DNA of 64,000 bases, from assembly GCA_001247695.2 (NCBI GenBank), contig LGRX02024691.1, positions 37,336-101,335 on the forward strand, given 5' to 3'. Below the pieces are notes generated by a model. It saw only the letters and a list, made by a program, of their open reading frames with translations. It did no database searches and was not told the origin of the DNA. The position numbers and the translations under genes are program-made. This document shows positions 9,036-44,107 of the stretch, piece by piece (the first letter of the stretch is position 1; each line of letters opens with the position of its first letter). Source of the DNA: Cymbomonas tetramitiformis. Its lineage: Eukaryota; Chlorophyta; Pyramimonadophyceae; Pyramimonadales; Pyramimonadaceae.

Positions 9036-9454
9036 TGTACTAGGGTGTATCGCGAGTCAAACGAGAGACAGTCGTGTCTGAATGACGAGTGACAGCACCA
9101 ATGACAGTCACCAGTATGACCGCGAGGTATGACAAGGGTGACTGACAGCTTGTGACTTTTTGAACATCTGCAACCACAGCAGATCAGGTTGAGAGAATTG
9201 GTGGGAAACCATTCCAGAAATGGGGGGAAACCATTTTATATTCAAACAGCCACACAGATCTGGAGGGAAACCAGGAGAGCCCCAGATCTTGCCACATCAT
9301 CAGATCTATGACTATTCAGTAATTCAGGGCAGAGATCATTGTATGACTGGCAGCTGCAGCCCAAAGGCCAAATGACAAGACCTGTCATAGGAGATGTGAA
9401 CATGAAGTGACTGAGCACTGTGACTGTCGAATTCGGATGAGATCTGAGGGAATT
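9036..9454 (+). repeat. Left LTR of element C, first part
   Basis: It matches 26934-27353 almost base for base and stops exactly where element A begins. The second part of this LTR lies at 22926-23117. Confidence 0.88.
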
Positions 9455-10140
9455 TGTGCCAGGGGCACGACGACAGATGCTCGGAGATATGTTTTTGATT
9501 GAACGTGCAAAGGTACACAATTCGGGTTTTATAATATACTGGATCAGGGCCAGATTGAGGTACAAACGATAATTCGGTTCCGAGTTCTGAAGGCTAAACA
9601 CTTCTCAAGTGCTCCACTTATTCACTCGTCACTCAGGTTGCAAGGTCAACCTCTTGACGGCCGATGTCACACTTCGGCTCAACGTTCAATTCCCGATCCG
9701 ATCTCATTTCTAATTCCGATTCGTCATTCTTGATTCAGATGTTATGCTGACAGACTGGCACGATGACTGTCCCACAGTACTGTCATACTGCTGTACTGTC
9801 ATACTGTCATACTGTCATAGCGTCATACTGTCATACTGTCATAACCTTGATATCTGATATTCAATCTCATTGTCTCTTCAACCCCGATGCGAATCCAACC
9901 ATTCTTCGAGGGTCTGACTGAGTGCCACGATGACACCCCCCACAGTACTGTCATACTACTATAGTGTCATACTGTCATACTGTGTCATAGTGTCATACTG
10001 TCATACCCCGGACATCTGGTACTCATTCTCATCGTGATTTCAAGCCCAATTTCACTGTCATCGTGCCAATCCCAGATTACCCCCGATGACACACATACGG
10101 ACGCATAGGCATATCGGCTCACGCTGTGCCTCCGGGCACA
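9455..10140 (-). repeat. 3' LTR of element A
   Basis: In plus orientation it starts TGTGCCAGGGGCACG and ends CCTCCGGGCACA, so its ends are short inverted repeats (TG...CA). It contains two clusters of the decamer CTGTCATACT/TGTCATAGTG (about 9775-9843 and 9945-10010). It differs from the 5' LTR at only a few positions seen by eye. Confidence 0.93.
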
Positions 10141-10160
10141 ACTCTCCCCCCCTTAGGAGT
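10141..10160 (-). other. Polypurine tract of element A
   Basis: On the minus strand the sequence just before the 3' LTR reads CTAAGGGGGGGAGAGT, a typical plus-strand primer site. The same tract borders the element B LTR (37637-37655). Confidence 0.8.
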
Positions 10161-10243: not shown

Positions 10244-13200
10244 TTAGGTTCTCTGGTTCCTTTTCGGGCATAGCTTGCCTGCCGCTACCAGGGCACCACT
10301 TTCACGAAGAAGGGTGCCACTTGGAATCCAAAGCGGGTCTTCAGTTTTGTGGAGGCGTAAATGTCGGAAAAGTTGTCGCAGCAGAAGTGCTGGCACGGGA
10401 TATACGCTCGCGGATTGGCCTGCTCCAGTCTGCTGCGGGTGAGGTCCAAGCTGAGCGGTTTCTGGGTGAGCACCGGTCGCCCATCTGCACGCACACGGTG
10501 TTGAAGCAGTACAGCGTAGCAGGGGCGTGGGTGGCGCTGAGTTCGTCCATATGCAAGTGGGCTTCATGTACTGCGTACCATACATGCAGTAGGTACACAC
10601 CAGCGGAGGGGGAAGTTGGCGCATCATAGGGCGAAGCCGCAGCGCGTTAGGGAAGCGACCTCTAGGGTTTTCCATGAACCAATGTTTCGGCTCCAAGTAG
10701 TCAATGATCTGCAATGCTCGTCGTACAATCTTGTCAGCCTGGGGAAGGTCAGGGGGTCCACCAGTGGTGCGCGCTTGACTGTACTGCCTGCAGGGGGGAC
10801 TTGCCCATACAACATCGAAGAATCCAGGCGGGTATTGTTTGTAGTCCCATTGCAGGATGTCACACACATGAGTGGGTTGCCAGATATGCCCGGAGTCGAG
10901 GGTCACTACTGAAGCGGAGGGGAAGCAATTTAGGAATTCCCTTTCTACTGAGCCAGTACCGCTGAAAAGTACGAGAATCCTGGGCGTGCGGGTTGCTTTT
11001 GTCTGTATCGCCAGCAGCTCTGTCACCAGTGCCAACGACCCATCTTCCGCGCGCTCCTGGCGTTCCCACGGCAGGGGGGCATCATCTTCCATCTGTTCGA
11101 GCTGGTCCAGTTCATCGCAGGGGTTAGTGATGAGGTGGGCCAGTGTCATTCCGGCTTGAGTGGAGTGACGGCCACGCTGCTCGCGTCGCCGAGTGGCTTC
11201 GTCGCGAACTTGCGCTTCCATGTGCAGTCTTGCTTGCTCGAATTCACGAAGTTGTTGAAGTGGACTTCCGCGTTCAAGTTTGTCACGCGTCCTCCATTGG
11301 TCGTGAGCTTTGGAGTAGCCAGTCCAGCGAACCTTCCACTCTTCCACCTCCTTTCCTCGAACAGACCGCACTCGACGTGCAAGGATGCGCTCAACGTGTG
11401 CTTCCTTCTGACCGTCCACTACCACCTCTTCAGGTACTGCTAGGTGATCGCGTGCGGCAAAAGCATCTTGACCGCTGGTGTACGGTTTGAGGCGATGTTG
11501 AGCGAACACGTCGTGAATCCGCCAGTGAGGAGGGAGGCGTAGGCGGTAGGCTACTGGAGCTCCTCTGTCGGCCTCGGGCATGGTCATCTGTATATCGCTG
11601 AAGAAGCGTTCGGTCACAGGAACTGGTCCATGCCAGCGCTTGGTCAGTTTCCTACAGATGGAGCGATCCATCACCTTCTCCGTAAGGTGTTTCGCCTCTA
11701 TCCAGACCAGATCTCCAACAGCATACTCCCGCTGCCCGTGTCTGCGATCAAACTGTTCGCGCTGTCGCTGTTGAGCCAGCTCTAACCGCTGTCTGGCGTC
11801 CCGCAGCTGCGACGAAAATTTCACAGCCACTTCGTGTGCGGTGCCTACTCCCCCAGTTCGTCGTCCAGCGGTGGACTGTGCGGCCTCCAGGAAAAGGTCC
11901 AACTGCGACAGCGGCGAGAACCCGAACACCAGTTCAAACGGCGTGAAGCCAGTAGATTCACTCCTGGAGTCATTGATCGCGAACTCCACGTTAGTGGTGA
12001 ACAGATCCCAGTCTTCCACATTGGCGTCTACAAAGGACCTGAGCATGTCTTCAATAACCCTGTTGCTGTGTTCTGCCTGGCCGTCAGATCGAGGGTTGTA
12101 CGGTGTGGTACGAGCCACTTTCACACCCATTAGTCTCATGAGTTCCTGCCAGAAAGCATCCTGAAACCGTGGGTCACGATCAGAGACAATCTTCATAGGC
12201 GCGCCATGTAAGCGCCACACCGAGTCAAAGTAGATTCTGGCCACCACAGCTGCGGAGCTGTCGCCGAAGTTCATCGGCACAACGTGGACCATCTTAGTCA
12301 ACTTGCAAGTGAAGGCTACGAAAGCGTCATTGCCTCTCTCTGATACCGGTAGCCCGGTGACGAAGTCCACCGCGACATCCTGCCATGGCCTGTTCGGGAT
12401 GCTGTGAGGGTTCAGCAACCCATCCGGGTAGGTTCCCCGCGGCCTCACTGATTGGCACACTGCGCAGGATGCAACCCAGGTGCCCACATCTTCTGCGGCT
12501 CCACGCCAATAGAAGCGTCGCAGCACCCTCTCCAGAGTCTTGTCTCGCCCAGTGTGACCCGAGGACAATGACTCATGAGCATGACGAATCACCACTTCTC
12601 GAAGTGGAGAGTCCTCCCCCAGCACCAACTGATATCTCCCTGCTGCGGTCCTCCAAACCACTTCACCCACTAGTCTGAAGTCCTGTAGGCATTGGTGTGG
12701 TGCCGCCTTTACTTTCTCTCTTAGTGAACGAAGTGTCCCCTCTCGGGTGTACTCCGCTTTTAACGCACGCAGGAACTTTGAGTCTGACTGCTGGGAGGCT
12801 GCGTCTCTGAAGTCTGCCGCCTCACCTGTCCTTATCACAGCGGGGGCTGTTCGCGGATGTCTCACGCGTGCTGGTTGTGGTTTGGCGGGAGGGGCGTGTA
12901 CTATCAGAACAGGCCAGCGAAGGTCGAAGGCCTTCCCATCTGGGTTCTCGAAGAACTGATTGGGCTCTCCCTTGTCATCGTGAGTAGGGATGACCTCCAC
13001 AATCTGCATATTGGCCTTTCTGAAAAGTTTGCGCCACGCGGGGAGCTTGGACTGGTGATCTGGTAGAACAAAGACTGCTGAGGTGTTCTCTGGGTCTGCC
13101 TTCCATTCTGCGATATACTTGTTCAAGATCGCCTCCACAGTAATGTGCTTGGAGTTGTATGGAGGGTTACACCAAACCCGAAGGCCCCTCCATTTCTCTG

Positions 13201-16200
13201 AAAGGCAGTCTGTCCAGAATCTATCCGCCTGTCTGTTGCGGCCGCCAAAGTCACAACAGGCGTCCACATCGAAGGGTCCAAATTTCTCGGCGTACTTCGA
13301 GGAGTACTCTGCTCGGACACGCCAATTCTGTGAGTCCTCTGGGGGAGCCTGCCGTTTTTGTGGGTGAAGGACCGGGGATGGAGTTGACTGTTGGGGCGCC
13401 TGCTGCGGGGTTGGCGAGCCCGCTGGCACCTTCTCAGTGGGCGCCTCCGATGCGTCAGCTCGTGACGTAGGCGTTCGCGTTTTCGGTGACGCCAACTGCG
13501 GGGGCGCTGGGGTCGCAGAGGCCTTCCCAGCGCGTGACATACTCCTCGTTATCCTTATCTGGGGTGGAGCTCTGTCAGGGGGTTCGTGTGGAGCTTCTAC
13601 CGGCTTCGCGCTATCAACTGCAGGCCAGTCAGGCATGTCGAAGTCGAGGTGATCCTCCTTCATTCCCTTATAGAGCTTCGGGTTAACGAGGGCGATGGTC
13701 TCCCCCACGTCCATGGCCTGTTCCGCCACGTAGAGGGTCTCCACTGCTGAGAGCCAACAGTCAACAGTCTGGGCCCAGTGGGGATGTGCTGCGGGTGGTG
13801 AGCTGGAGAAGCATTCAGACTCCAGCGTTGCCAGGGGGTCTTTCGGCAGATCTGAGGTGGGGTCGATCACCCCTGCCTCCTTCAACCCCTCACGCACGTC
13901 CTTGTCTTTGAAGTCGGGTCTTCTGGACAGGGCGTCCGGTACCAGCAGCAGCGCTCCTTTGATGTACTCCATTCTCGGGACTCCCACCTCCACCAGATCC
14001 ATGTACCAGCGTGCCTGTCTGCGGCTAAGCTCTCTGCCAGGTTCCATCAGCCATTCAAGGGGGCGGTGATCACCCTGGATGCGGAAGTTGGTGAAGATGA
14101 GGTAATGCCGCCAGGTAACGGTGGTACAGTGGTGTAGAGCACCTAGCTCACGCTCACCGGTGTGATAATTCTGCTCGGCGGCTGAGAACTGGCGGCTCTC
14201 GTATGCTATCACGCGCAGTCCAAGACCATCTCCATTGTCTTGCATCAGTACTCCCCCAAGAGCGATGCCGCTAGCATCCGTCTGCACCACGAAAGGTGCT
14301 GTGCCGTCTGCGGCACCCTTAATGTTGGGCAAGGCGAGCACTGGCGCTGAGGTGAGGGCCTTCTTCAGCTCCTCGAAGGCCCACTGCTGCATGGGACCCC
14401 ACTCCCAGGGTACGTCCGACTTGGTCAACCGGGTGAGGGGCTGAGCGATCTCGGAGAAGCAGTGGATGAACCTGCGGTAATACCCCGCCAGGCCCAAGAA
14501 CTGCCTGACGTGGGTAACCGTTTCCAGCTCGGGCCAGTCCCTCACTGCAGCCACCTTGTCGTGTTGGGGTCTGCAGCCATCCGCGGAGATACAGTGGCCA
14601 AGGAACCGCAAGGATTTCTTCAACAGTTGGCACTTGGACCTCTTGAGGAAGACGCCCTTCTCCCTGCATGTCAGGAGCAGTTGCTTGACGTGTTCGTAGT
14701 GCTCTGCAGCGGTGTTGCTGAAGACGACCACATCATCGATGAAGATCCGGACAAATGGGAGATGGCCCAAGGCCCGCTGCATCCGTCGCTGGTACTGAGA
14801 TGGTGAATTTTGCAGCCCCTGCGGCATGACCAACCACTCATATGACCCCATCTGGGTGGTGAAGGCGGTCTTCTCGACATCTCCTGGTGCCATCGGTACT
14901 TGCCAGAAGCCATCCACCGCGTCGAACGAAGAGAAGAACTTCGCACCCTGCATCTCGTCGAACATCATCTGGATGTCTGGGAGAGGATACTTGTCCTTAA
15001 CTGTCTGGCGGTTGAGGAGCCGGTAATCGATCACCAGTCGCAGCTCCTTGGGGTTCCCCGGTTTGGGGACCATCAGACAGGGAGCTGCATAAGGGCTGGA
15101 AGAGGGTCGGATGTAGCCCTTGGACATCAGAGTCTCCACGCGTTCTCGAAGTTGGCGGAGCTCCTCTGCAGACTTCTTGTAGATGCGCTGGCAGGGCGGC
15201 CCCTTCTTGCTCAGCTCAGGGTCCAGGTTAATGTTGGCTTCATCTTGAGGGTCATGTCTGAGTCCATCGATGTTCGGTAGTGCAGTCGTCATCTCCTTTT
15301 TGTACTCCTCACCCCAGAAGTCCTGAAACTTGAGGGTCCACTCAGGGCTCACTTCTGCATCTTCAGTATCCGCAGCGGGTTCGGCGTTCTCAGAGTCGAT
15401 AGCCGTGGCTGCAAAGGCAGAAGCAGTATCATCGGGGGACTTCTCGGCCACCATGAGCCAGGCGGGTTGTATCTCCGGGTCGTCATTGCCGCGTAGCTTC
15501 TGCGTCTCCGCGTACACCAGGTACTTCTTCAGCTGGGTAGGGGTTAGGAACACCTCATCCACCAATCCCGCGCAGGCCGTGCCCTTCGGAGACCTGTCCC
15601 CAGATGCTTTCCCAGGAGAACAGCCTGTGATGGTGACGCGATCCCCAATCTTACCACCGCGGGACTTCCTGAGGAAGGAGACGGAGCCATTCCCTTCATA
15701 GCCCAGAGTGACAGGAGAGTGACTGCGCAGCCACCTTCCGCCAAGGATAACATCCACCTGTATGCCCAGTGGTAGGATCCGGAGGGCAAGGGCGTTCTCC
15801 GTATAGGTGCCCGTGGTGGTGTGCGTGTTAAACTTGGCGTACGCGGTGGCGCCAGTAATCTTCACAGATCCATCCGCCAGGGTGACTCTCATCTCGGAGC
15901 CGGCTCGTGTCGTGAGGCCACATCGCTTAGCGCTCTGCTCCGAGATGAAGTTGTCAGAGGCCCCCGAGTCGATCAGCACCTTGACCGTGTGCCCTCTGAG
16001 GGTTGCATAGAATACCAGCAGTAGCGGTCCTTCTTCGTCATGTGCCGCTGCGAGGGTACCTTCGATGTCGGTCTTCCACTGAACTCCCCCATCTGTGCGT
16101 ATGCTTTTGCACTTGAGGTTGGGGAGGAGGTTGTCCGAGGCCTCGCGGCATTCTTCCAACGTTTGCCTACACGCGGCGTAGAACTCCTCATCCAGCAAAT

Positions 16201-16297
16201 CAACATCTTCAGTCGGATGACTGACGAGGTTGTCTACACTCGCCGTCAGCAGCGAGGGTGCCCGCTGAGGTGCATTCGCTCGAGGTGGGGCTGACAT
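10244..16297 (-). CDS. pol: Element A pol: PR-RT-RH-Dam-IN-chromodomain-C5-methyltransferase polyprotein
   Basis: A single open frame of 2017 residues starts at an ATG (MSAPPR). Domains by approximate residue: aspartic protease with DSGA at 110-113; reverse transcriptase 380-600 with FIDDVVV at 519-525; RNase H with QTDAS near 673; a Pro-rich linker; Dam-like N6-adenine methyltransferase about 990-1136 with FDVDA (1009-1013) and NPPY (1044-1047); integrase zinc finger (H..H..C..C, about 1239-1281) and core D1311, D1373, E1409; GPY-like region; chromodomain about 1630-1678; C5-cytosine methyltransferase 1770 onward with LFSGTGSVE (1777-1785), SPPC (1833-1836) and ENP (1876-1878). Insertion of a methyltransferase between RNase H and integrase is unusual for Ty3/gypsy. 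The extreme C-terminus appears to leave frame (see findings). The frame overlaps ORF2 by 89 bases in another frame. Confidence 0.95.
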   Translation of the reverse strand: MSAPPRANAPQRAPSLLTASVDNLVSHPTEDVDLLDEEFYAACRQTLEECREASDNLLPNLKCKSIRTDGGVQWKTDIEGTLAAAHDEEGPLLLVFYATLRGHTVKVLIDSGASDNFISEQSAKRCGLTTRAGSEMRVTLADGSVKITGATAYAKFNTHTTTGTYTENALALRILPLGIQVDVILGGRWLRSHSPVTLGYEGNGSVSFLRKSRGGKIGDRVTITGCSPGKASGDRSPKGTACAGLVDEVFLTPTQLKKYLVYAETQKLRGNDDPEIQPAWLMVAEKSPDDTASAFAATAIDSENAEPAADTEDAEVSPEWTLKFQDFWGEEYKKEMTTALPNIDGLRHDPQDEANINLDPELSKKGPPCQRIYKKSAEELRQLRERVETLMSKGYIRPSSSPYAAPCLMVPKPGNPKELRLVIDYRLLNRQTVKDKYPLPDIQMMFDEMQGAKFFSSFDAVDGFWQVPMAPGDVEKTAFTTQMGSYEWLVMPQGLQNSPSQYQRRMQRALGHLPFVRIFIDDVVVFSNTAAEHYEHVKQLLLTCREKGVFLKRSKCQLLKKSLRFLGHCISADGCRPQHDKVAAVRDWPELETVTHVRQFLGLAGYYRRFIHCFSEIAQPLTRLTKSDVPWEWGPMQQWAFEELKKALTSAPVLALPNIKGAADGTAPFVVQTDASGIALGGVLMQDNGDGLGLRVIAYESRQFSAAEQNYHTGERELGALHHCTTVTWRHYLIFTNFRIQGDHRPLEWLMEPGRELSRRQARWYMDLVEVGVPRMEYIKGALLLVPDALSRRPDFKDKDVREGLKEAGVIDPTSDLPKDPLATLESECFSSSPPAAHPHWAQTVDCWLSAVETLYVAEQAMDVGETIALVNPKLYKGMKEDHLDFDMPDWPAVDSAKPVEAPHEPPDRAPPQIRITRSMSRAGKASATPAPPQLASPKTRTPTSRADASEAPTEKVPAGSPTPQQAPQQSTPSPVLHPQKRQAPPEDSQNWRVRAEYSSKYAEKFGPFDVDACCDFGGRNRQADRFWTDCLSEKWRGLRVWCNPPYNSKHITVEAILNKYIAEWKADPENTSAVFVLPDHQSKLPAWRKLFRKANMQIVEVIPTHDDKGEPNQFFENPDGKAFDLRWPVLIVHAPPAKPQPARVRHPRTAPAVIRTGEAADFRDAASQQSDSKFLRALKAEYTREGTLRSLREKVKAAPHQCLQDFRLVGEVVWRTAAGRYQLVLGEDSPLREVVIRHAHESLSSGHTGRDKTLERVLRRFYWRGAAEDVGTWVASCAVCQSVRPRGTYPDGLLNPHSIPNRPWQDVAVDFVTGLPVSERGNDAFVAFTCKLTKMVHVVPMNFGDSSAAVVARIYFDSVWRLHGAPMKIVSDRDPRFQDAFWQELMRLMGVKVARTTPYNPRSDGQAEHSNRVIEDMLRSFVDANVEDWDLFTTNVEFAINDSRSESTGFTPFELVFGFSPLSQLDLFLEAAQSTAGRRTGGVGTAHEVAVKFSSQLRDARQRLELAQQRQREQFDRRHGQREYAVGDLVWIEAKHLTEKVMDRSICRKLTKRWHGPVPVTERFFSDIQMTMPEADRGAPVAYRLRLPPHWRIHDVFAQHRLKPYTSGQDAFAARDHLAVPEEVVVDGQKEAHVERILARRVRSVRGKEVEEWKVRWTGYSKAHDQWRTRDKLERGSPLQQLREFEQARLHMEAQVRDEATRRREQRGRHSTQAGMTLAHLITNPCDELDQLEQMEDDAPLPWERQERAEDGSLALVTELLAIQTKATRTPRILVLFSGTGSVEREFLNCFPSASVVTLDSGHIWQPTHVCDILQWDYKQYPPGFFDVVWASPPCRQYSQARTTGGPPDLPQADKIVRRALQIIDYLEPKHWFMENPRGRFPNALRLRPMMRQLPPPLVCTYCMYGTQYMKPTCIWTNSAPPTPLLRCTASTPCACRWATGAHPETAQLGPHPQQTGAGQSASVYPVPALLLRQLFRHLRLHKTEDPLWIPSGTLLRESGALVAAGKLCPKRNQRT
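10285..10990 (-). other. Cytosine-C5 DNA methyltransferase domain at the end of element A pol
   Basis: Motif I is ILVLFSGTGSVEREF. A DI.QWDY segment follows, then motif IV VVWASPPCRQYSQA with the catalytic Cys, motif VI WFMENPRG and a YGTQYMKPTCIWTN segment typical of compact viral/phage enzymes. There is almost no target-recognition insert, so the domain is small. The expected C-terminal motif (RAYIPCQHFCCDNF) is present but lies in another frame at 10285-10494. Confidence 0.88.
12892..13330 (-). other. Phage-Dam-like adenine-N6 methyltransferase domain inside element A pol
   Basis: The pattern is AEYSSKYAEKFGPFDVDACC, then a W-rich stretch, RVWCNPPYNS, then AVFVLPDHQ and a C-terminal WPVLIV strand. 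This follows the order of the phage-type Dam family: an acidic FD.D motif ahead of an (N)PPY catalytic motif and a VxxLP strand. NPPY is the catalytic tetrapeptide of amino-methyltransferases. Activity and target site are unknown. Confidence 0.82.
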
Positions 16298-17942
16298 GAG
16301 TTGTGTCGCTGGTGGTAGGGCTCACATGGGTGGTGTCACTGGTAGTAGGGCTCACATGAGTAGTGCCACTGGTGGTGGGGCTTACATGGGTAGTGCCACT
16401 TACTGTGGGGCTCACGTGGGTAGTGCCGCTTGTTGTGGGGCTCGTATGGGTAGCGACACTATTGATGAGACTGCCATGGGTGAGGGAATCCTCGTCATGC
16501 TGAGGGCTGCCAGTAGGGGAGTTGTGGGCGAGATGGTGGGAGCTCTGGTGACCAGTTCTCGCCTCAGGGGTCCCAGCTGCTGCCATCTGCTGGGTGAAGC
16601 AGAGCGAATTGACCGAGGACTCCTCTTCCATCACCTCAGGGTCTTCAGCGATTGGGTGGCTGTCGAGACAGGGCGGCGCTTCACCTGCTTCATGCGTTCT
16701 GACGGTGGTCATCTGCTGGGTGAAGCAAAGCGAACTGGGTGTGGAGGTCTCCTCTACCTCTGAGCAGTAGGATGAACCTTCGGGGTTTCCTCCCGGAGTG
16801 GCCGGCGCATTATCATGGTGCGAAGATGTAGTCTCTGTTGTGGGCTCGGCCAGCGAGGATGATGGAGGGGATGCTCCCAAGGGGCTGGGACCCAGCTTCC
16901 TCATCTTGTACTGGTGTACTGCGTGCAGACTGCACCAGGCGCCAGGTAGACCCACATCTCCCGCTGTCCCAGGTATCGTACCCACTTCAGTGTCCAGGAT
17001 GCAGAGGGATGTCGAAGATCTCGCTGCTGCTCTTCGTGCTCCCTCCTTTTCCCACAGCCTGCTACCTGGGGAAGAGTCTGGGCTCGAAGTGGCGATTGCC
17101 TTTTGCTGCTCGGCGGGCGACAGCTCTCTCCAAGCCGCGTAGAGGTCGTGGGAGCTGGCGTTAGAGGGTTCGGGGACTTGCTGGCGACCGTCGTGTGAGA
17201 GGAGGTGCCACAATGCTATGCGCTGATGGCCCTCCTTGCGATCTTGAGGTTCGCGGGCAATGCGTATCCTCTCTGCCAGTTGGTTGGCGTGGTTCACGCG
17301 CTCCTTTGGCGATCGACTCCCAGGGTGTATGCGGCTGCGGGCGCGCTCCGACATCTTATCCACCAGGTCCTTGGCAGCCTCTGGGGATTTGCGCAGAGCT
17401 CTGCGGACCTTTTGCATGGCGACCTCGAGGGGGAGGGAGTACAGATCTCTCTTCCAGTGCCACGCAGCTAGCCTTTTCCGTGGGTCTGCGAGGTTGGACT
17501 GATAGATGGGCAGTGGTAAGACAACACGCGGTCGGGGGCGAAGATCGCGGGGCTCTCCGCGGTTGCTGCCCATAATGGGGGGTCTGTGCCGGGGGACTCG
17601 CCGTCCCCTCCGACCCTCGATCCTCGCTTGAGTATAAGCAGGGCCGTCATCAAGAGGTAGTGATGGCTCATCGAAGGGGGTGCTTCCTGCAAGAGGGTGG
17701 CTAGACAAGTCATCCCTCGACGGCGATGGGGCACCAGCTGAGCGGTAGGTGCGTCGCAAGCGGGTCCCAGAGGTGAAGGCCACGCTCTTGGGATGGGGAC
17801 GTTGGCCCCAAGGATCTCTGCGTCCTCGGGCGCGTCGGGGTTCCACTGGTTCTGGCCGCTTCTCCAGGGCGGAGAGGGTCTGATCATCAGGGAAAGACCT
17901 CACTTCCTCGAAAGGCAGGGTCTGGGGCTGGCCGCCGGCCAG
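16209..17942 (-). CDS. Element A ORF2, in frame with gag after a UGA stop; unknown function
   Basis: The open frame follows gag in the same reading frame, directly after the gag stop (TGA then CTGG). No ATG is evident near its start, so expression by stop readthrough is possible. The product would be basic and Arg-rich, with a region of about 150 residues containing WHWKRDLYSLPLEVAMQKVR and a W-rich helical stretch. It ends in seven or so 10-residue repeats of the TTHVSPTTSG type (16296-16470). I recognise no family. By position it could be a gag extension or a linker to the protease. The pol ATG lies inside its 3' end, shifted +1. Confidence 0.65.
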   Translation of the reverse strand: MAGGQPQTLPFEEVRSFPDDQTLSALEKRPEPVEPRRARGRRDPWGQRPHPKSVAFTSGTRLRRTYRSAGAPSPSRDDLSSHPLAGSTPFDEPSLPLDDGPAYTQARIEGRRGRRVPRHRPPIMGSNRGEPRDLRPRPRVVLPLPIYQSNLADPRKRLAAWHWKRDLYSLPLEVAMQKVRRALRKSPEAAKDLVDKMSERARSRIHPGSRSPKERVNHANQLAERIRIAREPQDRKEGHQRIALWHLLSHDGRQQVPEPSNASSHDLYAAWRELSPAEQQKAIATSSPDSSPGSRLWEKEGARRAAARSSTSLCILDTEVGTIPGTAGDVGLPGAWCSLHAVHQYKMRKLGPSPLGASPPSSSLAEPTTETTSSHHDNAPATPGGNPEGSSYCSEVEETSTPSSLCFTQQMTTVRTHEAGEAPPCLDSHPIAEDPEVMEEESSVNSLCFTQQMAAAGTPEARTGHQSSHHLAHNSPTGSPQHDEDSLTHGSLINSVATHTSPTTSGTTHVSPTVSGTTHVSPTTSGTTHVSPTTSDTTHVSPTTSDTTHVSPTSSECTSAGTLAADGECRQPRQSSD

Positions 17943-20900
17943 TCATTCATCGCTCTCCACCGATGGGAGGCCGTCACCTTCCACGAGCTCGATACCCGCA
18001 AGGGCCGCCAGGGTCTGGTAGCTCTGCTCGTCCTCACAGGTGGCAAGAGCCAAGACCTCCTCGGAGAACTCCTCTGGGACGCCATCCACCGAGGAGATGT
18101 CCTCCTGCTGCTCGATGGCCCAAACGACGGCGGCTACAAACCCAGGGGAGTTCGCCAGTCGAGCGGGTGCATTGGCCCTCCACTCCTTGAGTTTAGCCTC
18201 GTCCGTACAGTTACGGACGATGTGCTCCGCAGAGCCGCAGGCGAAGCACCGGCGGACTTTCGGAGCGTCGGGGCGAGAGAGGCCAGGTGGTGGTGGCAAT
18301 GGGGTCACTGCCGCGGCGACGGTGGTGGCAGGCCCATTCTCCAGCATGGCGAGCGCTGGGCGGTTCGAAGATGGGGTACGCCTGAAGAAGGGGGTGCGAG
18401 GTGATGGATTGGCGAAGGAGACAGTACGGGGAGGACGGTCTTGAGAGCGCCTCTGAGCCGCCTCCGTGTCGATGTCACTCTCCACCTCCTCAGCAACTTC
18501 CCAAATCTTCAGCAAGGCGTTGTGGGTGCCTGGGATATCGCCAGCAACGGCCTTCCTTTCCCACTCTTCTGGCTTGGAGACATCCAAGTGGATGGCTCTC
18601 AAGCGTCGCATCACCTTGGGTGCATATTTCAACCCTCGGCGGTACGTGGAGAGCATCGACAGGTTGGTCATCTCCACGCAATTGGGGACTCTGCCAGCCA
18701 GGAAGTTGACGGAGGCCATGCGGGTCTCCAATCGCGAGAAGTACTCCGCCGCGGTCTCGCTCGTCGCCTGCTTCAGGGCAATGGCCTCGCCATGTGCGTT
18801 CTCCAGGTAGGCCTGCGTCAGGGAGCACACTGCCAGGTCGCTGAAGAACACATCCAACTCCCCGTAGCGTTGGTGCCAGGCCTGCTCGGACCCGAAGGTC
18901 CCTGCCGCGCGCTCCAAGAACTTCCTCTGCTGGTCTTGAAGAGTGTGCTCCTTGAAACTCCAAAGAAGGCTTGACACACTCGCCTGGTACGCTGATACAG
19001 ACGGCGTACAGCTGGGAGTGGTCAGTGCCTCGATCACGATGGCCTCTTGGAATACCTTCCGCACCATGTTGGAGTAGTTCTCCAGCTGCGTCAGGAGGCT
19101 CTCCTTGTCGGCCGATTTAGTGTCGGACGCGGAGCGGGGGAACCTGGTCACGCTCTTGACCAGCTTTAGCACCATCTCCTTGGTCTTGTGCTCCAGACGG
19201 ACCTCATCTGAGGATGCTCGCAGATCAGTGCCCTGCGGCAACCGAACGATGCCTGGTACAAAGGGGGTGGCGCTGGGAGAGAGCACGGGGTTCGCAGCGG
19301 CGGCAGGGTGAACGGGGTTCGCGGCAGAGTGAACGGGGTTTGCGGCGGTGGAGTGGGGAAAACGGGCTGGAGGTGGTGGTCCCGGGGCATGCGTGGGCGG
19401 GAGCGCAGGCGCGGGATTTGTGGGGACTGCGGTCGGAGTGGGCGGTAATGCAGGGGCTGATGGTGGTGCGGGGAGTGGAAGAGGTGTATGAAAGGGCAGG
19501 GGTGTGGATGGTTGTGCGGCCACCACGCTCATGCTCCGGTACCAATCGGAGTTGCTGACCTCCGACCACGCGGCGAGCCCGTCCTGATCGAAGTTCTGCA
19601 TCTCCGACTCCCGCGCAGTGGCAGGGATCCACTCCCACACTGGTTGCCCCATGCTCGTAGACCGCACATTGGCCGCGGCTGGGTCCCCCATTGCCATATC
19701 CATGACCTCGCGATCAACCATGAGAACCCAGGTCTCCACACGAGGGTTGGTAAGTGGTAGGGGTGCATGGTGTAGGCGGCCTCCCATACGCGCATATGCG
19801 GTCAGCAGCGCTCCCAGCAGGTGCATGATCCTGAACAAGATGGCGTCGCCCTGCACCCCAGCCCGGCGGCGTTCATCCCATGGCAGGGAGACGGTTGCCG
19901 CGCCTCGCACCCCCGCTGACTGGTGCACCCACAATGAGCCACCATCGTGGGTGACGAAGAGGGCTCTGACCTCTGGGTACTGAGGGTAGGAGGGCTCTGG
20001 TGCGGGGTCGTCAGGGGGATCTTGAGGTGGATCACTGGGGGGCCCTGGTGACGAATCGCTTGAACTGGAGTCTCTGGGCTCTGAGTCGGGGTCGCCACCG
20101 CCGTGTACCACCGTCTCCATCGACTGCCGCCGGCGGGCCACCATCATGTTGTGGGGATTTGGCCGACCCTGAATGGGGGGTTCGGCGGGAGCGGCCTCAG
20201 CGACGGTCTGAGGCACTGGGGGGGTTACGCTGGCGGCGACGTCTGCCTCGCGTGGATGGTCCGCCGTCAATCCCCCCTGTGCGCTGCTCTGAGGGTCGCC
20301 TGGTGGAGAGGCTCCTGCAGATGTCGTCGCGCCAGGCAGGGCGAGTCCTCTCGAAAGCACCGCGGGGATGTCCAGGGCTTGTACTGCCGCTAAGACTTCT
20401 CTGCGAATGTGCTCGCTTCGGCTGCTCGCGTCCGAGTCGGAGCCGGACCTATGGGCGGCCCTCCGCCTGCGCTCAGCCCGTGCCTGCGTGCTGCGGCTGC
20501 CTCTGGTCCCCGTGCTGGTGCGGCTGATGTCCGTGCCGGAGTCGGGGTCAGAGTGGTCAGGTGCGTGGCTTAGACCTGGGAGATGCTTGCCATGTGTCGC
20601 AGGGCCCGAGGATACTCTTCGGGAACGCCGACGCCGGCGGTTCTCTGAGGTTGCTGCCACCGCAGGAAGGTGACGCACCAAAAGCTGGGTCCCGCCCGAG
20701 ACGCTCTGCTGAGCTCCACTGTCAAGGGGTATCTGCAGAGGGTCCGGCAGGGGTGCGGCACCGATGCTGACGAAGTGTTGCAGCGATGAGAGGTCCGCGC
20801 CTGAGTCATGAAGCGCGGAGGTGGCTGGTGCCAGATGGTGGGGCTGCTGTAGTCGATGCTGCGGCAGTTGCGGCGGCTGAGGCTGCTGTTGCTGCTGTTG

Positions 20901-21365
20901 CTGCTGCTGTTGCTGCTGTAACTGCTGTTGCTGGAACTGCTGCTGCTGTAACTGCTGCTGCATCGGTTCCAGTGGCTGCTGCTGAAGCCACTGCTGTTGT
21001 TGCTGCTGGTACGCGAGCCACTGTTGCTGCTGCTGCAGCTGTTGTTGGAACGGTGTGGGATATGCGCCCACGGGGTGATGGGTTCCCAGTGTGAACGGTA
21101 CTGGTGACACTCCCCCAGCGAGGGGCGCTGATTGGGGCAATACCCAATTGACACCGTTCCATACAGCCTGTGCGGGGGTGCCATCCGGCATAGTATAAGG
21201 GCGGGGCATCGCTGTGTAAGGCATGGTGGTGCCTGGATGTGGAATGGGGTGAGCGGAAGCGTATGCGGTGGGCGATGGGAAGGTCATGGGGGAGAACAGT
21301 GTGTGGTGTAGCTGCTCTGCGCTGATACCCATGCTGGAAAATGCTTCTGATGTCTGCTGTGACAT
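17943..21365 (-). CDS. gag: Element A Gag with polyglutamine tract and CCHC zinc knuckle
   Basis: The start is taken at ATG 21365 (MSQQTSEAF), because element B has the same N-terminus (MSQHTS) at 46792; the frame itself is open 60 bases further upstream without ATG. The N-terminal third holds a long Gln tract encoded by imperfect CTG/TTG codons on the plus strand (about 20870-21060). Ser/Pro/Arg-rich segments follow, then a helical capsid-like region (LETRMASVNFLAGRVPN area), and a zinc knuckle CFACGSAEHIVRNC (CX2CX4HX4C). The acidic C-terminus ends SVESDE before UGA. It should form the virus-like particle. Confidence 0.87.
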   Translation of the reverse strand: MSQQTSEAFSSMGISAEQLHHTLFSPMTFPSPTAYASAHPIPHPGTTMPYTAMPRPYTMPDGTPAQAVWNGVNWVLPQSAPLAGGVSPVPFTLGTHHPVGAYPTPFQQQLQQQQQWLAYQQQQQQWLQQQPLEPMQQQLQQQQFQQQQLQQQQQQQQQQQQPQPPQLPQHRLQQPHHLAPATSALHDSGADLSSLQHFVSIGAAPLPDPLQIPLDSGAQQSVSGGTQLLVRHLPAVAATSENRRRRRSRRVSSGPATHGKHLPGLSHAPDHSDPDSGTDISRTSTGTRGSRSTQARAERRRRAAHRSGSDSDASSRSEHIRREVLAAVQALDIPAVLSRGLALPGATTSAGASPPGDPQSSAQGGLTADHPREADVAASVTPPVPQTVAEAAPAEPPIQGRPNPHNMMVARRRQSMETVVHGGGDPDSEPRDSSSSDSSPGPPSDPPQDPPDDPAPEPSYPQYPEVRALFVTHDGGSLWVHQSAGVRGAATVSLPWDERRRAGVQGDAILFRIMHLLGALLTAYARMGGRLHHAPLPLTNPRVETWVLMVDREVMDMAMGDPAAANVRSTSMGQPVWEWIPATARESEMQNFDQDGLAAWSEVSNSDWYRSMSVVAAQPSTPLPFHTPLPLPAPPSAPALPPTPTAVPTNPAPALPPTHAPGPPPPARFPHSTAANPVHSAANPVHPAAAANPVLSPSATPFVPGIVRLPQGTDLRASSDEVRLEHKTKEMVLKLVKSVTRFPRSASDTKSADKESLLTQLENYSNMVRKVFQEAIVIEALTTPSCTPSVSAYQASVSSLLWSFKEHTLQDQQRKFLERAAGTFGSEQAWHQRYGELDVFFSDLAVCSLTQAYLENAHGEAIALKQATSETAAEYFSRLETRMASVNFLAGRVPNCVEMTNLSMLSTYRRGLKYAPKVMRRLRAIHLDVSKPEEWERKAVAGDIPGTHNALLKIWEVAEEVESDIDTEAAQRRSQDRPPRTVSFANPSPRTPFFRRTPSSNRPALAMLENGPATTVAAAVTPLPPPPGLSRPDAPKVRRCFACGSAEHIVRNCTDEAKLKEWRANAPARLANSPGFVAAVVWAIEQQEDISSVDGVPEEFSEEVLALATCEDEQSYQTLAALAGIELVEGDGLPSVESDE

Positions 21366-21425
21366 TCTGACTGCTGAGCTGGTTGGGTTCAAAGACTGGT
21401 TGTGGCAATAGCCACAGGTGAGCAA

Positions 21426-22224: not shown

Positions 22225-22241
22225 CGCTCATTGATACCAAT
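22225..22241 (-). other. Primer-binding site of element A
   Basis: Directly after the 5' LTR end on the minus strand the sequence reads ATTGGTATCAATGAGCG. TGGTATCA is the common initiator tRNA-Met primer match. Confidence 0.75.
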
Positions 22242-22925
22242 TGTGCCAGGGGCACGACGACAGATGCTCGGAGATATGTTTTTGATTGAACGTGCAAAGG
22301 TACACAATTCGGGTTTTATAATATACTGGATCAGGGCCAGATTGAGGTACAAACGATAATTCGGTTCCGAGTTCTGAAGGCTAAACACTTCTCAAGTGCT
22401 CCACTTATTCACTCGTCACTCAGGTTGCAAGGTCAACCTCTTGACGGCCGATGTCACACTTCGGCTCAACGTTCAATTCCCGATCCGATCTCATTTCTAA
22501 TTCCGATTCGTCATTCTTGATTCAGATGTTATGCTGACAGACTGGCACGATGACTGTCCCACAGTACTGTCATACTGTTGTACTGTCATACTGTCATACT
22601 GTCATAGCGTCATACTGTCATACTGTCATAACCTTGATATCTGATATTCAATCTCATTGTCTCTTCAACCCCGATGCGAATCCAACCATTCTTCGAGGGT
22701 CTGACTGAGTGCCACGATGACACCCCCCACAGTACTGTCATACTACTATAGTGTCATACTGTCATACTGTCATAGTGTCATACTGTCATACCCCGGACAT
22801 CTGGTACTCATTCTCATCGTGATTTCAAGCCCAATTTCACTGTCATCGTGCCAATCCCAGATTACCCCCGATGACACACATACAGACGCATAGGCATATC
22901 GGCTCACGCTGTGCCTCCGGGCACA
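22242..22925 (-). repeat. 5' LTR of element A
   Basis: It has the same ends and internal decamer clusters as 9455-10140 and is followed by the GAATT target duplication. Confidence 0.93.
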
Positions 22926-23117
22926 GAATTCGAGTCGACATGTTACTACTTAAAGAGCTGAACAAGCTCTCATGTCAGTTTTTGAATTAGTTACACATTG
23001 GCACTGAGCTCTGGTGTCTTGTAACTTCAAACAGTGAAAGTTCACCTAAGTTAAATGAAATATCCGACAGTATACAAAGCATTCCAATATCACCCTATGG
23101 TCCCAAGACCATATTCT
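22926..23117 (+). repeat. Left LTR of element C, second part
   Basis: The sequence from CGAGTCGACATGTTACTACT to CCATATTCTCTGTAA matches 27353-27545. The terminal 48 or so bases of the right LTR (to CCGAACA) have no counterpart here, which marks a deletion. Confidence 0.85.
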
Positions 23118-26933: not shown

Positions 26934-27593
26934 TGTACTAGGGTGTATCGCGAGTCAGACGAGAGACAGTCGTGTCAGAATGACGAGTGACAGCACCAAT
27001 GACAGTCACCAGTATGACCGCGAGGTATGACAAGGGTGACTGACAGCTTGTGACTTTTTGAACATCTGCAACCACAGCAGATCAGGTTGAGAGAATTGGT
27101 GGGAAACCATTCCAGAAATGGGGGGAAACCATTTTATATTCAAACAGCCACACAGATCTGGAGGGAAACCAGGAGAGCCCCAGATCTTGCCACATCATCA
27201 GATCTATGACTATTCAGTAATTCAGGGCAGAGATCATTGTATGACTGGCAGCTGCAGCCCAAAGGCCAAATGACAAGACCTGTCATAGGAGATGTGAACA
27301 TGAAGTGACTGAGCACTGTGACTGTCGAATTCGGATGAGATCTGAGGGAATTCGAGTCGACATGTTACTACTTAAAGAGCTGAACAAGCTCTCATGTCAG
27401 TTTTTGAATTAGTTACACATTGGCACTGAGCTCTGGTGTCTTGTAACTTCAAACAGTGAAAGTTCACCTAAGTTAAATGAAATATCCGACAGTATACAAA
27501 GCATTCCAATATCACCCTATGGTCCCAAGACCATATTCTCTGTAAGTGTTACTTGCACCCTTGTGAGACTGGTTCAGTCCTCACAACCGAACA
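26934..27593 (+). repeat. Right LTR of element C
   Basis: It starts TGTACTAGGG after a purine tract and ends TCCTCACAACCGAACA before the ATAAA duplication. It is the uninterrupted reference that shows where element A entered the left copy. Confidence 0.9.
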
Positions 27594-36984: not shown

Positions 36985-37636
36985 TGTGCCCGTGGGCAGT
37001 ACGACAGATGCTCGGAATAATGTTTTTGATTGAACGTGCAAAGGTACACAATTCGGATTTTATAATATACTGGATCAGGGCCAGATTGAGGTGCAAACGA
37101 TAGTTCGGTTCCGAGTTCTGAAGGCTAAACACTTCTCAAGTGCTCTACTTATTCACTCGTCACTCGGGCTGCAGGGTCAACCACCCGGCACCCGATGTCA
37201 CGCCACGGCTCAACGTTCAATTCCCGATCCGATCTCATTTCTAATTCCGATTCGTCATTCTCGATTCAGATGTTACGTCGACGTACTGACACGATGACTG
37301 CTATACAGTACTGTCATACTACGGTACTGTCATACTATCATAGTGTCATACTGTCATACTCCCGACATCTGATATTCGATTTCATTGTCTTTCCGATCCC
37401 GATGCGAATCTGGCCATTCCCCGAGGATCTGGCTAAGTGCCACGATGACCACCCCACAGTACTGTCATACTACTATAGTGTCATAGTGTCATACTGTCAT
37501 ACCCCGGACATCTGGTACTCATTCTCATCGTGATTTCAAGCCCAATTTCACTGTCATCGTGTCAATCCCAGATTACTCCCGATGACACACATACAGACGC
37601 ATAGACATATCAGCTCACGCTGTGCCTCCGGGCACA
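36985..37636 (-). repeat. 3' LTR of element B
   Basis: In plus orientation it starts TGTGCCCGTGGGCAGTACGA and ends TGCCTCCGGGCACA. It shares the TTTTTGATTGAACGTGCAAA block with element A LTRs and has fewer decamer repeats. Confidence 0.88.
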
Positions 37637-37655
37637 ACTCTCCCCCCTTAGGAGT

Positions 37656-37899
37656 GGTCTACCTCCTGGGATCACTCCGCTAAGGTACCCATCTAAGTTC
37701 CAGTTCTTAGGTTTTCTGGTTCCTTCTTGTCTCCAGTTCTTAGGTGTCTGATTCCTCTTCGAGCACAATTCGCCTGCCGCTACCAGGGCACCACTTTCAT
37801 AAGAAGGGTGCCACTTGGGATCTAAAGCGGGTCTTCAGTCTTGCGGAGGCGTAGATGTCGGAAAAGTTGTCGCAGTAGGGGCGCTGGTACAGGATATAC
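37656..37899 (-). pseudogene. Element B pol 3' end and trailer, left of the hAT insertion
   Basis: It corresponds to 10161-10401 of element A and ends exactly at the GGATATAC target duplication (37892-37899). Confidence 0.8.
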
Positions 37900-38441
37900 T
37901 AACCGCAGTAACCAGTTAGGCCAGTTAACTAGTTAGACCCAGTTACTACCAGTTATTGTTACTAACTAGTAAATCAATTTTATTTTTATTAACTAACTGA
38001 CCCTAGCTAGTAAATCAATTCGCACTAACCGTTTGTAGCTAGTAAATCAATTTTATTATCGAATTAACTACTTAGTGGCAGTAACGAGCTGACCCCCCCC
38101 AAAATTTATTAATTGCCAGTTAATCACCCCCCCTGGGTCCACGTGGGCGAAAAATCTGAAAATGACGAATTTGCAATTTCGAATTTGGAATTTTCGATTT
38201 TCCGACGGACTCGAGACGCAGCGCAGACTTGAGACTGCCGAAACGATACTGTACTGTCGGAGCGCGAGACGACATCCGACATCCTGATGCTCACGCGTGT
38301 GACACTCCGATGTTGAATTGTCTTCACACGAGCCAAGATATCTGATATGAATGGTTTCTGGCCAGTCGAGTGACCGTTCCGTTGTAAACAGCAGTCCGCT
38401 GTACAGAAAGGTATACGCTGTGCTGGAACCGAAGGTTAAGG

Positions 38442-41400
38442 ATGGGACGTATGAAGAAAAAGTTGACGTCTGAAACTTCCAAGGGCGGTCCTAGAGGTGG
38501 GAGCGCGGAGGTTTCAGCTGTCGTGGACGGTAAGAAGGGCGGGATTCATCAGCGAACCCGCAAGCATTTGGCGGACAGCGCTAGCGGCTTGGAGGAGTAC
38601 TTTATTGAGGATATCATCGCCATGCGGTGGACCAAAGGCCGCCGTGAGTGGTTGGTGCGTTGGAAAGGGTATGGCGCAAAGGATGACACTTGGGAGCCGA
38701 TCGAGCACCTTGCAGGTGCGCGCAGCAAGGAACTCAACAATTTAGGGTTTCCAAATATGCCTGTGCTCGCGCGTTGCGTTCTTCTATTGCGTATCGATGA
38801 TAGTGGGAAAATGAATTTGGGAGAGGGATGCTGCAACAAAGTCGTTCGTTATTTTGTGTCATCTTACTGAACGCCTTTGCGTGTTTGGAACATGGTTGTA
38901 GGTGCGGAGGAGTACATCAGCAGATTTGACCAGGAGCAACTCGACAAGAATGAAGAGGCAGCGGCTGCGGTGGCCAAGAAACAGCAAGCTGCGCGGGATG
39001 CGCAGTCAACGGCAGCGCTTGCGAGGGAAGCTGAGATTGAGGCTGAACGCCAACGACAAGAGGCGCAGTTGAAGAACAAGAAGTCCAAGCGCACCTCCCC
39101 CTGGTGGGCTTATTTCAGGGAGGGTGTGGCCAACACCACCCATGTGTATTGTACGCTGCCCTCAAAGGATGATCCCACGAAGGAGTGTGGGGGAGCTATC
39201 GCTAGGAGCGCCTGCCCTAGTGGATTACAGAGCCATTGTTTGTACATGCACAACCAGGTCTGGAAGGAGGTCGACGCTAGAATTCGACAGGAGAAGGAGG
39301 AGAAGGTCGTGTCACTTTCGGAGGTTTCACGTGGGCCCAACCAATCTAACACGCTGACAGGAAAGGAGGGAAGTGTTTGGTCTGAAACTCGCAAGGCGGA
39401 CATCGACGAGAAGTTGAGTTTTTGGGTCGCGAAGAAAAAACGGCCTGTGGCCTTGTTGGAGGACGAGGAGTAGTATCGATGGACGTGGCGGGATGCGACT
39501 CGTGGGGCCTACCAGCCCCCTGGCCACACGAAGGCGAAGAAGGAGATCACTCGCATGTCACATAAAGGTGAGCTCACTTTCACTGATAATTCACAACAAG
39601 GCGGATCGGAAACCTGTTAAGTGTTTGCGTGTTCCCTTGATATTTTGTGATCTTGCTCGCGTTTCTCATACGTAGTGTTTTACAAGCATACTATGTTTTG
39701 TTGCTTTTCGGGACTATCGGGTTTGCACAGATCACAACTGCACCAGTTACCCACGTTGGAGGGCACCGCGTTGCATGCACACATGAATTGGGCATCTTGT
39801 AGATTGCACACCGCCGACCGCACACCGCACCTCCAACACTGTGGAGCATAGCATCTGAACAGGTTCGTAGATTATGTGAACTCATAGTAGTGTTTGATTG
39901 TGTTACAATGTTGTCACGAAAGCATGTAAACAATATTGTGATGTTACATATTTACATTCATATTGCCCTTACATTTGTGCGGTGTGCAATAGAATAAGTG
40001 TCTCGAGCAATATCTCGAGAAGGGTCTCGAGCAGGGTCTCGAGCAGGGTCTCGAGCTGTGTCTCGACCTGCATCTCTTATTTCGAGCAATATCTCGAGCT
40101 GTGTCTCGAACAGTGTCTCGCGAGCTGTGTCTCGAGCAATATCTCGAGCTGTATCTCGAGCAATATCTAGAGTTGTGTCTCGAGTTGTGTCTCGAGCAAT
40201 ATCTCGAGCCATATCTCGAGCTGTGTCTCGAGCTGCATCTCCTATCTCGAGCTGTGTCTCGAACAGTGTCTCGAGCTGCATCTCCTATCTCGAGCAATAT
40301 CTCGAGCCGTGTCTCGAACAGTGTCTCGAGCTATATCTCGAGCCGTGTCTCGAGCAATATCTCGAGCTGTATCTCGAGCAATATCTCGAGCCATATCTCG
40401 AGCTGTGTCTCGAGCTGCATCTCCTATCTCGAGCAATATCTCGAGCCGTGTCTCGAACAGAGTCTCGAGCTGCATCTTCTATCTCGAGCAATATCTCGAG
40501 CTGTGTCTCGGACAGTGTCTCGAGCTATATCTCGAGCCGTGTCTCGAGCAATATCTCGAGTTGTGTCTCGAGCTATGCTGTATCTCGAGCAGGGTCTCGA
40601 GCTGTATCTCGAGCTGTATCTCGAGCAATATCTCGAGCTGTGTCTCGAGCAATATCTCGAGCTGTGTCTCGAGCTATATCTCGAGCAGGGTCTCGAGCCG
40701 TATCTCGAGCTGTGTCTCGAGCAATATCTCGAGCTGTGTCTCGAGCAATATCTCGAGCTGTGTCTCGAGCTGCATCTCCTATCTCGAGCAATATCTCGAG
40801 CTGTGTCTCGAACTGTGTCTCGAGTTGTATCTCGAGCAATATCTCGAGCTGTATCTCGAGCTATATCTCAAGCAGGGTCTCGAGCTATATCTCGAGCAGG
40901 GTCTCGAGCTATAGCCCCTGCTCTTTTTCCTTTTCCTCTCTCCTTCCCTCCTCTCTCCCCACTCCCTCTTGCTCTTTATGACCTTACTCATTAACTCCAC
41001 GTGCACTTGGGTGGGTGGGCGGCTGGGCGCAGGAATGGAACGTGTTATGACGAAGAGCTCTATTCGGCGCCAAGAAGGCTTCAAGCCTTGCCTGGGTGGC
41101 GACATTTGGACTGATGGGGAGGTGTCCATCATGGCCATCCTACAGTACGCCATCGACCGCTCCTTTGCCCCGGACGATAAGTACCACCGTCATCCCATTG
41201 GTTTTCATGTCGCCGAAGAGTTGGTCACCGCCGTTCCTTTTGACAAGGACGCCCACACCGGTGACAACATCGAGATTAAGTTGACCGCCGAGCTCGCCGC
41301 AGCCAACTTCCCTGTCACCGACCCAGGCATGGGCGTCTTCGACTGCGTGTCCGACAATGGGGCGAACATGGTCAATGGCATGGAGAAGTTGGGGGATGGC

Positions 41401-42872: not shown

Positions 42873-42898
42873 GAGCATTCCGCATAAGCCAGATTAAG

Positions 42899-43037
42899 TG
42901 AGATGTGGTGAACGCAACAAACTCCCAAGACAGGGAGAATAGTTGCTAGTAACGTTCCTCACGACAATGTGAGATGTGGTGAACGCGACAACCTCCCAAG
43001 ACAGGAAGAATAGTTGCTAGTAACGTTCCTCGTAAAG
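42899..43037 (+). repeat. 70-bp tandem duplication near the right end of the hAT element
   Basis: Two copies of GAGATGTGGTGAACGC through GTTGCTAGTAACGTTCCTC begin about 42899 and 42969. They are probably in the 3' UTR or subterminal region of the transposon. Confidence 0.8.
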
Positions 43038-43438
43038 TTGATGGCCTGGCCGGTGGAGAAAATTAGTGTAAAATGTGCGGTAATTGGTAATAGTACACTG
43101 GGATTATCATTATTAATGTTTCGTATATGCTCGCCATGAGTGAGGACATCATAATCAGGAGTAACTTTCATATGTGGCGCATCATGTATATGCATACATA
43201 TATGTATGGGTCGAGTCTGACCTCGAATGAATTGCATTTAATGCAATTGTATGGCCCATACTCAAAATCGGCAGTAACCAGTTATACCACCAATTAACCA
43301 GTGCAAAAATCGGAATTAATTCTTACTAACCAGCAAATCAATTTCATTTTTATTAACTAACTAACCCCAACCAGTAAATCAATTCGCACTAATCACTTCC
43401 AACCAGTTGGACCTCAGGTCAACTGGTTACGCCCCTTA

Positions 43439-44100
43439 GGATATACGCTCGCGGATTGACCCGCTCCAGTCTGCTGCGGATGAGGTCCCAGCTGAGCAGT
43501 TTCCGGGTGAGCACCGGTCGCCCATCTACACGCACATGGTGTCGAAGCAGTGCAGCGTAACAAAGGCGTGGGTGGTGCTGAGATCGTCCATATGCAAGTG
43601 GGCTTCATGTACTGCGTGCCGTACATGCAGTAGGTACACACCAGCGGGGGAGGAAGCTGGCGCATCATGGGCCGAAGCCGCAACGCGTTGGGGAAACGAC
43701 CTCTGGGGTTTTCCATGAACCAGTGTTTCGGCTCCAGGTAGTCGATGATCTGCAATGTTCGTCGCACGATTTTGTCAGCCTGAGGAAGATCAGGGGGTCC
43801 TCCGGTGGTGCGCGCTTGACTGTACTGTCTACAGGTGGGGCTTGCCCAAACGGCATCGAAGAATCCAGGCGGGTATTGCTTGTAGTCCCACTGTCCCACT
43901 GTCCTGCACATGAGTGGGATGCCAGATGTGCTCGGAGTCGAGGGTCACCACTGAAGCGGTGGGGAAGCAATTTAGGAACTCTCTCTCCACCGAACCAGTG
44001 CCGCTGAAAAGTACAAGGATTCTGGGCACACGGGTTGCTTCTGTCTGAATCGCCATTAGCTCTGTCACCAGTGCCAACGACCCATCTTCTGTGCGTTCTT
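43439..44100 (-). pseudogene. Element B cytosine-C5 methyltransferase domain
   Basis: The right side of the split pol resumes at the duplicated GGATATAC. It carries SPTCRQYSQA in place of SPPCRQYSQA of element A, WFMENPRG and YMKPTCIWT. Near 43900 the VCDILQWDYK segment is altered by a small duplication that shifts frame. LFSGTGSVEREF is present in another frame at 43829-44077. With the motif-IV Pro changed and the frame broken, this copy is probably dead. Confidence 0.8.
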
Positions 44101-44107
44101 GACGCTC

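Follow-up and report, generated by a model that had tools for sequence, protein, structure and literature searches.

Host DNA methylation is normally directed against retrotransposons, and a family carrying two predicted DNA methyltransferases of its own reverses the usual arms race. Among the closest described systems, KnitGypsy-Dnmt3 of Klebsormidium nitens is a gypsy-type long terminal repeat (LTR) element with a cytosine methyltransferase in Pol and evolves under purifying selection, with Ka/Ks below 0.2 (PMC5890265). SymbioDIRS-Dnmt3 and the Dam-bearing DIRS elements likewise have a methyltransferase in a retrotransposon Pol, either Dnmt3 or Dam-like; de novo CG methylation is described for SymbioDIRS-Dnmt3, and its authors propose that complementary DNA (cDNA) is methylated (PMC5890265). 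Chromoviruses, including the Chlamyvir-related elements of Cymbomonas, are Ty3/gypsy elements with a chromodomain in pol (PMC10675990). The stretch analysed here, called the window, comprises 64,000 nucleotides of the marine green alga Cymbomonas tetramitiformis (contig LGRX02024691.1, positions 37,336 to 101,335) and contains a Ty3/gypsy-type element in whose single pol frame a chromodomain and two methyltransferases are predicted, a Dam-family adenine enzyme and a compact C5-cytosine enzyme (C5). We lean slightly towards the view that this dual-methyltransferase element uses both enzymes to write N6-methyladenine (6mA) and 5-methylcytosine (5mC) on its own new DNA.

Domain Organization of the Polyprotein

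The pol open reading frame (ORF) of 2017 amino acids lies on the minus strand at window positions 10244..16297, the open frame extending to 16321. The Pfam matches, all on that strand, follow the order protease, reverse transcriptase (RT), RNase H, Dam, integrase, chromodomain and C5, in agreement with the original prediction, made from the sequence by a model, that one 2017-residue frame holds all seven. The aspartic protease (residues 98-187, 15737..16006) carries DSGA, the RT (residues 410-568, 14594..15070) carries FIDD, and RNase H (residues 633-769, 13991..14401) is followed, beyond the Dam domain, by an integrase with zinc finger, core and DD35E (residues 1226-1480, 11858..12622). A Tf2-type SH3 domain is found between the integrase core and the chromodomain. 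All catalytic motifs are present, namely DSGA, FIDD, NPPY, DD35E, FSGTGS, SPPC and ENP.

The Dam-family N6-adenine methyltransferase domain occupies residues 985-1137 (12887..13345), with its NPPY, which fits [DNS]PP[YFW], at 13157-13168. It passes the cut-off of PF05869 (residues 985-1056, E 4.5e-7, 30.1 bits against 28.1), misses that of NCBIfam TIGR01712 (18.9 with 97.05 needed) and matches phrog_111 of PHROGs at E 4.4e-11. The predicted fold agrees, and the nearest viral models are named DNA N6-adenine methyltransferases. Searching with the domain sequence alone found no convincing solved structure; a profile search does find one. Relatives occur in 10 phage records at E 8e-3 or better. 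Profile, motif and predicted fold together mark the domain as a Dam-family N6-adenine methyltransferase. It could be argued that the adenine enzyme acts on RNA, the element's own transcript, leaving C5 as the sole enzyme acting on DNA. We consider this unlikely, given the match to the Dam family above the cut-off, the match to phrog_111 and the DNA enzymes named in the viral models.

The compact C5 domain spans residues 1767-1977 (10367..10999), with SPPC at 10790-10801 and ENP from 10672. It narrowly misses the cut-off of PF00145 (E 4.5e-4, 20.2 bits against 22.0); among five family members tested with this profile, P0021 (24.7), P0022 (23.6) and P0024 (25.3) pass, whereas P0019 (17.6) and P0023 (18.6) fall below. 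The match to phrog_757 covers residues 1763-1954 at E 2.4e-15, motifs I, IV (PC) and VI (ENP) are all present, and the predicted fold agrees. Here too, a convincing solved structure was not found from the domain sequence alone but is found by a profile search; 13 phage records hold a relative, at 28-34% identity. Taken together, profile, motif and predicted fold identify the domain as a C5-cytosine methyltransferase.

The chromodomain (residues 1634-1687, 11237..11398) passes its Pfam cut-off at E 1e-6. The original prediction had placed an NPPY Dam-like domain at about 990-1136, a chromodomain at about 1630-1678 and an SPPC/ENP cytosine methyltransferase from about 1770; all three are borne out with slightly shifted limits, and the lack of any methyltransferase profile or fold match, named there as a ground for giving up the idea, is not what was found for either enzyme.

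The RT/RNase H region has Ty3 RT as its best solved relative (E 1.2e-72, by sequence search). The Ty3/gypsy order protease-RT-RNase H-integrase is kept, with Dam inserted between the last two, and the chromodomain stands at the C-terminal end of the integrase, as in chromoviruses. TG...CA ends, a short target-site duplication, a primer-binding site and a polypurine tract are present as well. Judged by its sequence, the element is a Ty3/gypsy-type LTR retrotransposon with Dam, chromodomain and compact C5 in a single pol frame, and the identity of these parts leaves very little doubt.

Architecture and Insertion Site

The element is a 13.5 kb LTR retrotransposon on the minus strand (9455-22925). 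Two substitutions and one 2-bp indel separate its 3' LTR (9455..10140, 686 bp, TG...CA) from its 5' LTR (22242..22925, 684 bp), and the target-site duplication GAATT adjoins the outer edge of each (9450..9454 and 22926..22930). The repeat hit by the insertion has an uninterrupted sister at 26934..27548, an empty site to which the joined flanks with a single GAATT align over 615 nt at 99.5% and without gaps. Since the duplication, the gapless empty site and the near-identical LTRs all agree, the insertion is real and, judged by the LTRs, recent; the recent movement that had been proposed from the similarity of the LTRs is therefore upheld.

Two bases past the 5' LTR lies the primer-binding site TGGTATCAATGAGC (22226..22239, minus strand), which we take to be initiator-Met-like, and the polypurine tract GGGGGGGAGAGT (10141..10152, minus strand) is found directly ahead of the 3' LTR. 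On the same strand, gag is a separate ORF of 1160 amino acids (17943..21425) with a weak CCHC zinc knuckle whose match (E 0.0058) is below the cut-off. After the gag TGA, the same frame continues as a middle open frame of 577 codons (16212..17942), for which a Pfam search gave no match. The pol ORF is in a different frame from both. In the relative P0001, the middle stretch and pol form one continuous frame of 2492 residues, which means that the copy described here has an interruption between the two. The gag-pol product may be made through read-through of the stop.

Copies in the Window and Selection

A second, decayed copy of the family lies at 36985..48826 on the minus strand. It retains both LTRs, a partial gag, the C-terminal half of Dam, the integrase, the chromodomain and C5, and is interrupted between 37899 and 43439; no counterpart of the stretch for protease, RT and RNase H or of the start of Dam was found within 36985-48826. 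Its pol part is 87.9% identical to that of the element across 2754 aligned bases. The comparison of both copies puts the ratio of nonsynonymous to synonymous change (dN/dS) at 0.018 in the C-terminal half of Dam, the half without NPPY (95% interval 0-0.060, 78 codons), and at 0.056 in C5 (0.023-0.111, 199 codons). The integrase has a ratio of 0.035 (0.016-0.064) and the chromodomain one of 0.022 (0-0.058), against 2.8 and 4.5 in wrong-frame controls. C5 and the C-terminal half of Dam are thus under purifying selection about as strict as that on the integrase, and the history separating the copies therefore filtered for protein function in both.

C/T-type differences between the two copies fall at 134 of 610 CpG, 90 of 763 CpA, 106 of 710 CpC and 108 of 633 CpT sites, a mild excess at CpG in which codon effects are mixed and host and element enzymes are indistinguishable. 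The CpG observed/expected ratio of the element (0.76) lies inside the range of other stretches (0.71 to 0.98).

The stretch of about 5.5 kb that interrupts the C5 region of the second copy (37900-43438) contains plus-strand ORFs at 39998-42872. A third, distant relative is an ORF of 506 amino acids with chromodomain and C5 by Pfam (54139..55659, minus strand), close to two other C. tetramitiformis proteins, P0045 (CYMTET_32376; 95.5%, 311 residues) and P0041 (CYMTET_12107; 95.3%).

A Conserved Family

A search with the C5 region gave 27 homologous proteins and one with the Dam region gave 12, their union being 29. Family profiles detect both methyltransferases in 25 of the 29, in the order Dam-integrase-C5, although among these Dam is represented in P0015 by its end only and C5 in P0027 by its start only. 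The remaining four are P0024, in which the order differs and Dam was recognized through Pfam; P0025 and P0026; and P0028, which has Dam and is annotated as partial. The closest protein to pol is P0001 (97.5%, a JGI entry), and P0012 (CYMTET_16929, C. tetramitiformis) is 92.7% identical to pol over 1406 residues. Judged by the matches to C. tetramitiformis proteins, the window would probably come from this green alga (Pyramimonadophyceae) or a near relative.

All six domains, the long ones near full length, are present in 16 homologues and in the window. Mean identities in this set are 0.42 for the protease, 0.56 for RT, 0.41 for Dam, 0.56 for the integrase, 0.42 for the chromodomain and 0.53 for C5, and the domain distances run parallel (Mantel r 0.85-0.94), which argues that the fusion is old and has been inherited as a unit.

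The surroundings of the element are repeat-rich and nested, and one could suspect that the fusion is a chimera made by the assembly or a non-functional by-product of nested insertions, although nothing further points that way. This explanation deserves practically no weight, and a chimera is ruled out by the order common to homologues both named and metagenomic, the gapless empty site and the dN/dS values far below 1. That the fused frame might be unique to this assembly, the other ground on which the original prediction was to be dropped, is contradicted by the same 25 proteins.

The two Symbiodinium natans proteins, P0025 and P0026, combine C5 with AAA/viral-helicase-like domains and have SPCC in place of SPPC; a search for RT in them was negative. 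P0055 of Symbiodinium microadriaticum shows the same compact C5 type in a dinoflagellate protein. In P0019, a cysteine-rich segment at about 1385-1440, PHD-finger-like by eye and without a Pfam match at 0.01, lies between the degraded Dam and the integrase.

The scan of bacterial and archaeal genomes gave at least three loci. One of them (NHEN01000032.1, 16-3768), filed under Verrucomicrobiaceae bacterium TMED86, encodes a polyprotein of the window type with NPPY and SPPC that is 57% identical to P0018, and is probably misbinned DNA of eukaryotic plankton. In viral contigs, neither a confirmed relative of the window C5 nor one of the whole pol was found; a C5 alignment search gave 22 distant loci, for two of which (L001 and L002) the ORF lists were inspected. 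If the sequences treated in the relevant section of Burns et al. belong to the family, it would number hundreds of copies, but they are not linked there as parts of a single element.

Origin of the C5 Domain

The C5 profile scored 7996 proteins, 3459 of them at E 1e-5 or better. Many of the best 120 of these 3459 are about 200-220 residues long. A number of seemingly stand-alone proteins are fragments of polyproteins, several of them with a chromodomain. Such fragments were left out of the tree, whose 50 rows comprise 19 gypsy-type domains, P0024, P0025 and 29 stand-alone enzymes. The 19 gypsy-type domains share a fork with five stand-alone enzymes; a single clade of the 19 is compatible with the data (approximately unbiased test, p-AU 0.39), with two changes required even in the best tree. 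The C5 of the element groups with compact stand-alone enzymes.

P0024 (1366 amino acids, metagenomic) is a Ty3-like polyprotein with the order protease-Dam-C5-RT-RNase H. It matches Ty3 RT at E 8.8e-73, and both its methyltransferase domains pass their Pfam cut-offs. A single origin of C5 for all dual elements was rejected, since joining P0024 to the gypsy-type clade gives p-AU 0.002, a value to be taken with caution because P0024 is a long branch (1.34). Its C5 was apparently acquired separately and, because both the order and the position in the tree differ, Dam and C5 have probably been brought together twice.

Possible Functions of the Two Enzymes

We favour self-methylation of new copies; the element's own DNA would be the simplest target for both enzymes. 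Pol would first be cut by its protease. Dam, to judge by its position between RNase H and integrase, may act on cDNA during its synthesis, and C5, placed after integrase and chromodomain, either on cDNA or, when the element inserts, on the neighbouring DNA. By analogy, the chromodomain-C5 pair could work like a plant chromomethylase that is brought to its target by the integrase. As a result, a new insertion would begin with a chosen chromatin state or escape recognition as foreign. A more specific proposal, which we put forward tentatively, holds that an old planktonic Ty3/gypsy clade programs its own insertions, Dam writing 6mA on cDNA and an integrase-borne chromodomain-C5, a re-invented chromomethylase, writing 5mC at the landing site, and that Dam and C5 were paired on two or more occasions, as P0024 suggests.

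Alternatively, the methyltransferases could act in trans, marking or disabling competing DNA of giant viruses or polintons, or altering host chromatin, and the host would tolerate the element for it. Morozov et al. made such a proposal for retrotransposon-encoded methylases in general (PMC6338049), and many endogenous viral elements are reported from the Cymbomonas assembly (PMC10675990). However, selection on a selfish element should favour effects on its own DNA first, and we regard action in trans as quite unlikely.

The alignments bear on whether catalysis is needed. NPP[YF] is intact in 20 of the 26 covered rows of the Dam alignment. The C5 cysteine motif is intact throughout its 28 covered rows, reading SPPC in 26 and SPCC in the Symbiodinium pair, and ENP is kept in 27 of 27. 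This conservation stands against the improbable alternative that Pol retains the domains chiefly for structure or for binding nucleic acid, with catalysis optional, although the six rows with a degraded motif (P0004, P0005, P0019, P0020, P0021 and P0022) do retain the Dam fold region. Three observations qualify self-methylation by both enzymes: the motif lost in those six rows, from which it follows that writing 6mA is dispensable across the family; the interrupted gag-pol frame of this copy, which may therefore lack autonomy; and the chromodomain itself, which the original prediction makes a reader of histone methylation and where the alignment with HP1 keeps a tryptophan and a later tyrosine but has a non-aromatic residue at the first cage position (these positions being those we assume for the HP1 aromatic cage).

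Across eukaryotes, 6mA has been linked to transcriptionally permissive chromatin (PMC12695648), and the family raises the question of whether 5mC and 6mA act jointly or in opposition. What a mobile element gains from methylating DNA itself becomes testable in a culturable alga, for which relatives with intact and with degraded Dam motifs offer a natural comparison.

Other Features of the Window

Two adjacent plus-strand ORFs at 31669-35661, of 813 and 475 amino acids, have no Pfam match at 0.001. The region 1650-7542 contains several minisatellite arrays, whose repeat units measure 42, 46, 49, 55 and 68 bp, and a tRNA-Ala (AGC) on the plus strand at 50929-51002 is the sole RNA family match within the window.

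Comparison with Known Systems

KnitGypsy-Dnmt3 has one methyltransferase, assigned to Dnmt3 by its authors, and an adenine enzyme goes unmentioned in the sections concerned (PMC5890265). The element described here has Dam, a chromodomain and a compact C5 akin to short stand-alone enzymes, Dnmt3 being compared by description only. DIRS elements are of the tyrosine-recombinase type, and the same sections give each of them a single enzyme, of either the cytosine or the adenine kind (PMC5890265), whereas a DDE integrase and a chromodomain are present here. With respect to the Chlamyvir-related chromoviruses, the word "methyltransferase" does not occur in the text of PMC10675990. DAM- and DCM-encoding Ty3/Gypsy and DIRS elements are mentioned elsewhere, where the passage does not state that both occur in one element (PMC6338049), and a paper describing an adenine and a cytosine enzyme together in one retrotransposon was not found in searches of open-licence papers.

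Stand-alone C5 enzymes (P0051, P0085, P0089 and others) share the length of about 210 residues and the motifs, at 40-47% identity to the C5 of the element, but the three named show no fusion to a retrotransposon polyprotein in the proteins as listed. Plant chromomethylases (CMT3/ZMET2) likewise unite chromodomain and C5, reader and writer, in one chain. They are host enzymes that also contain a BAH domain; in the element, the chromodomain follows the integrase and lies upstream of C5, and the homology claimed is that of the C5 fold only. Cytosine methyltransferases in gypsy and DIRS elements, Dam in DIRS and chromodomains in gypsy elements are therefore already known; the literature searches did not show their combination in one conserved, selected and recently mobile design.

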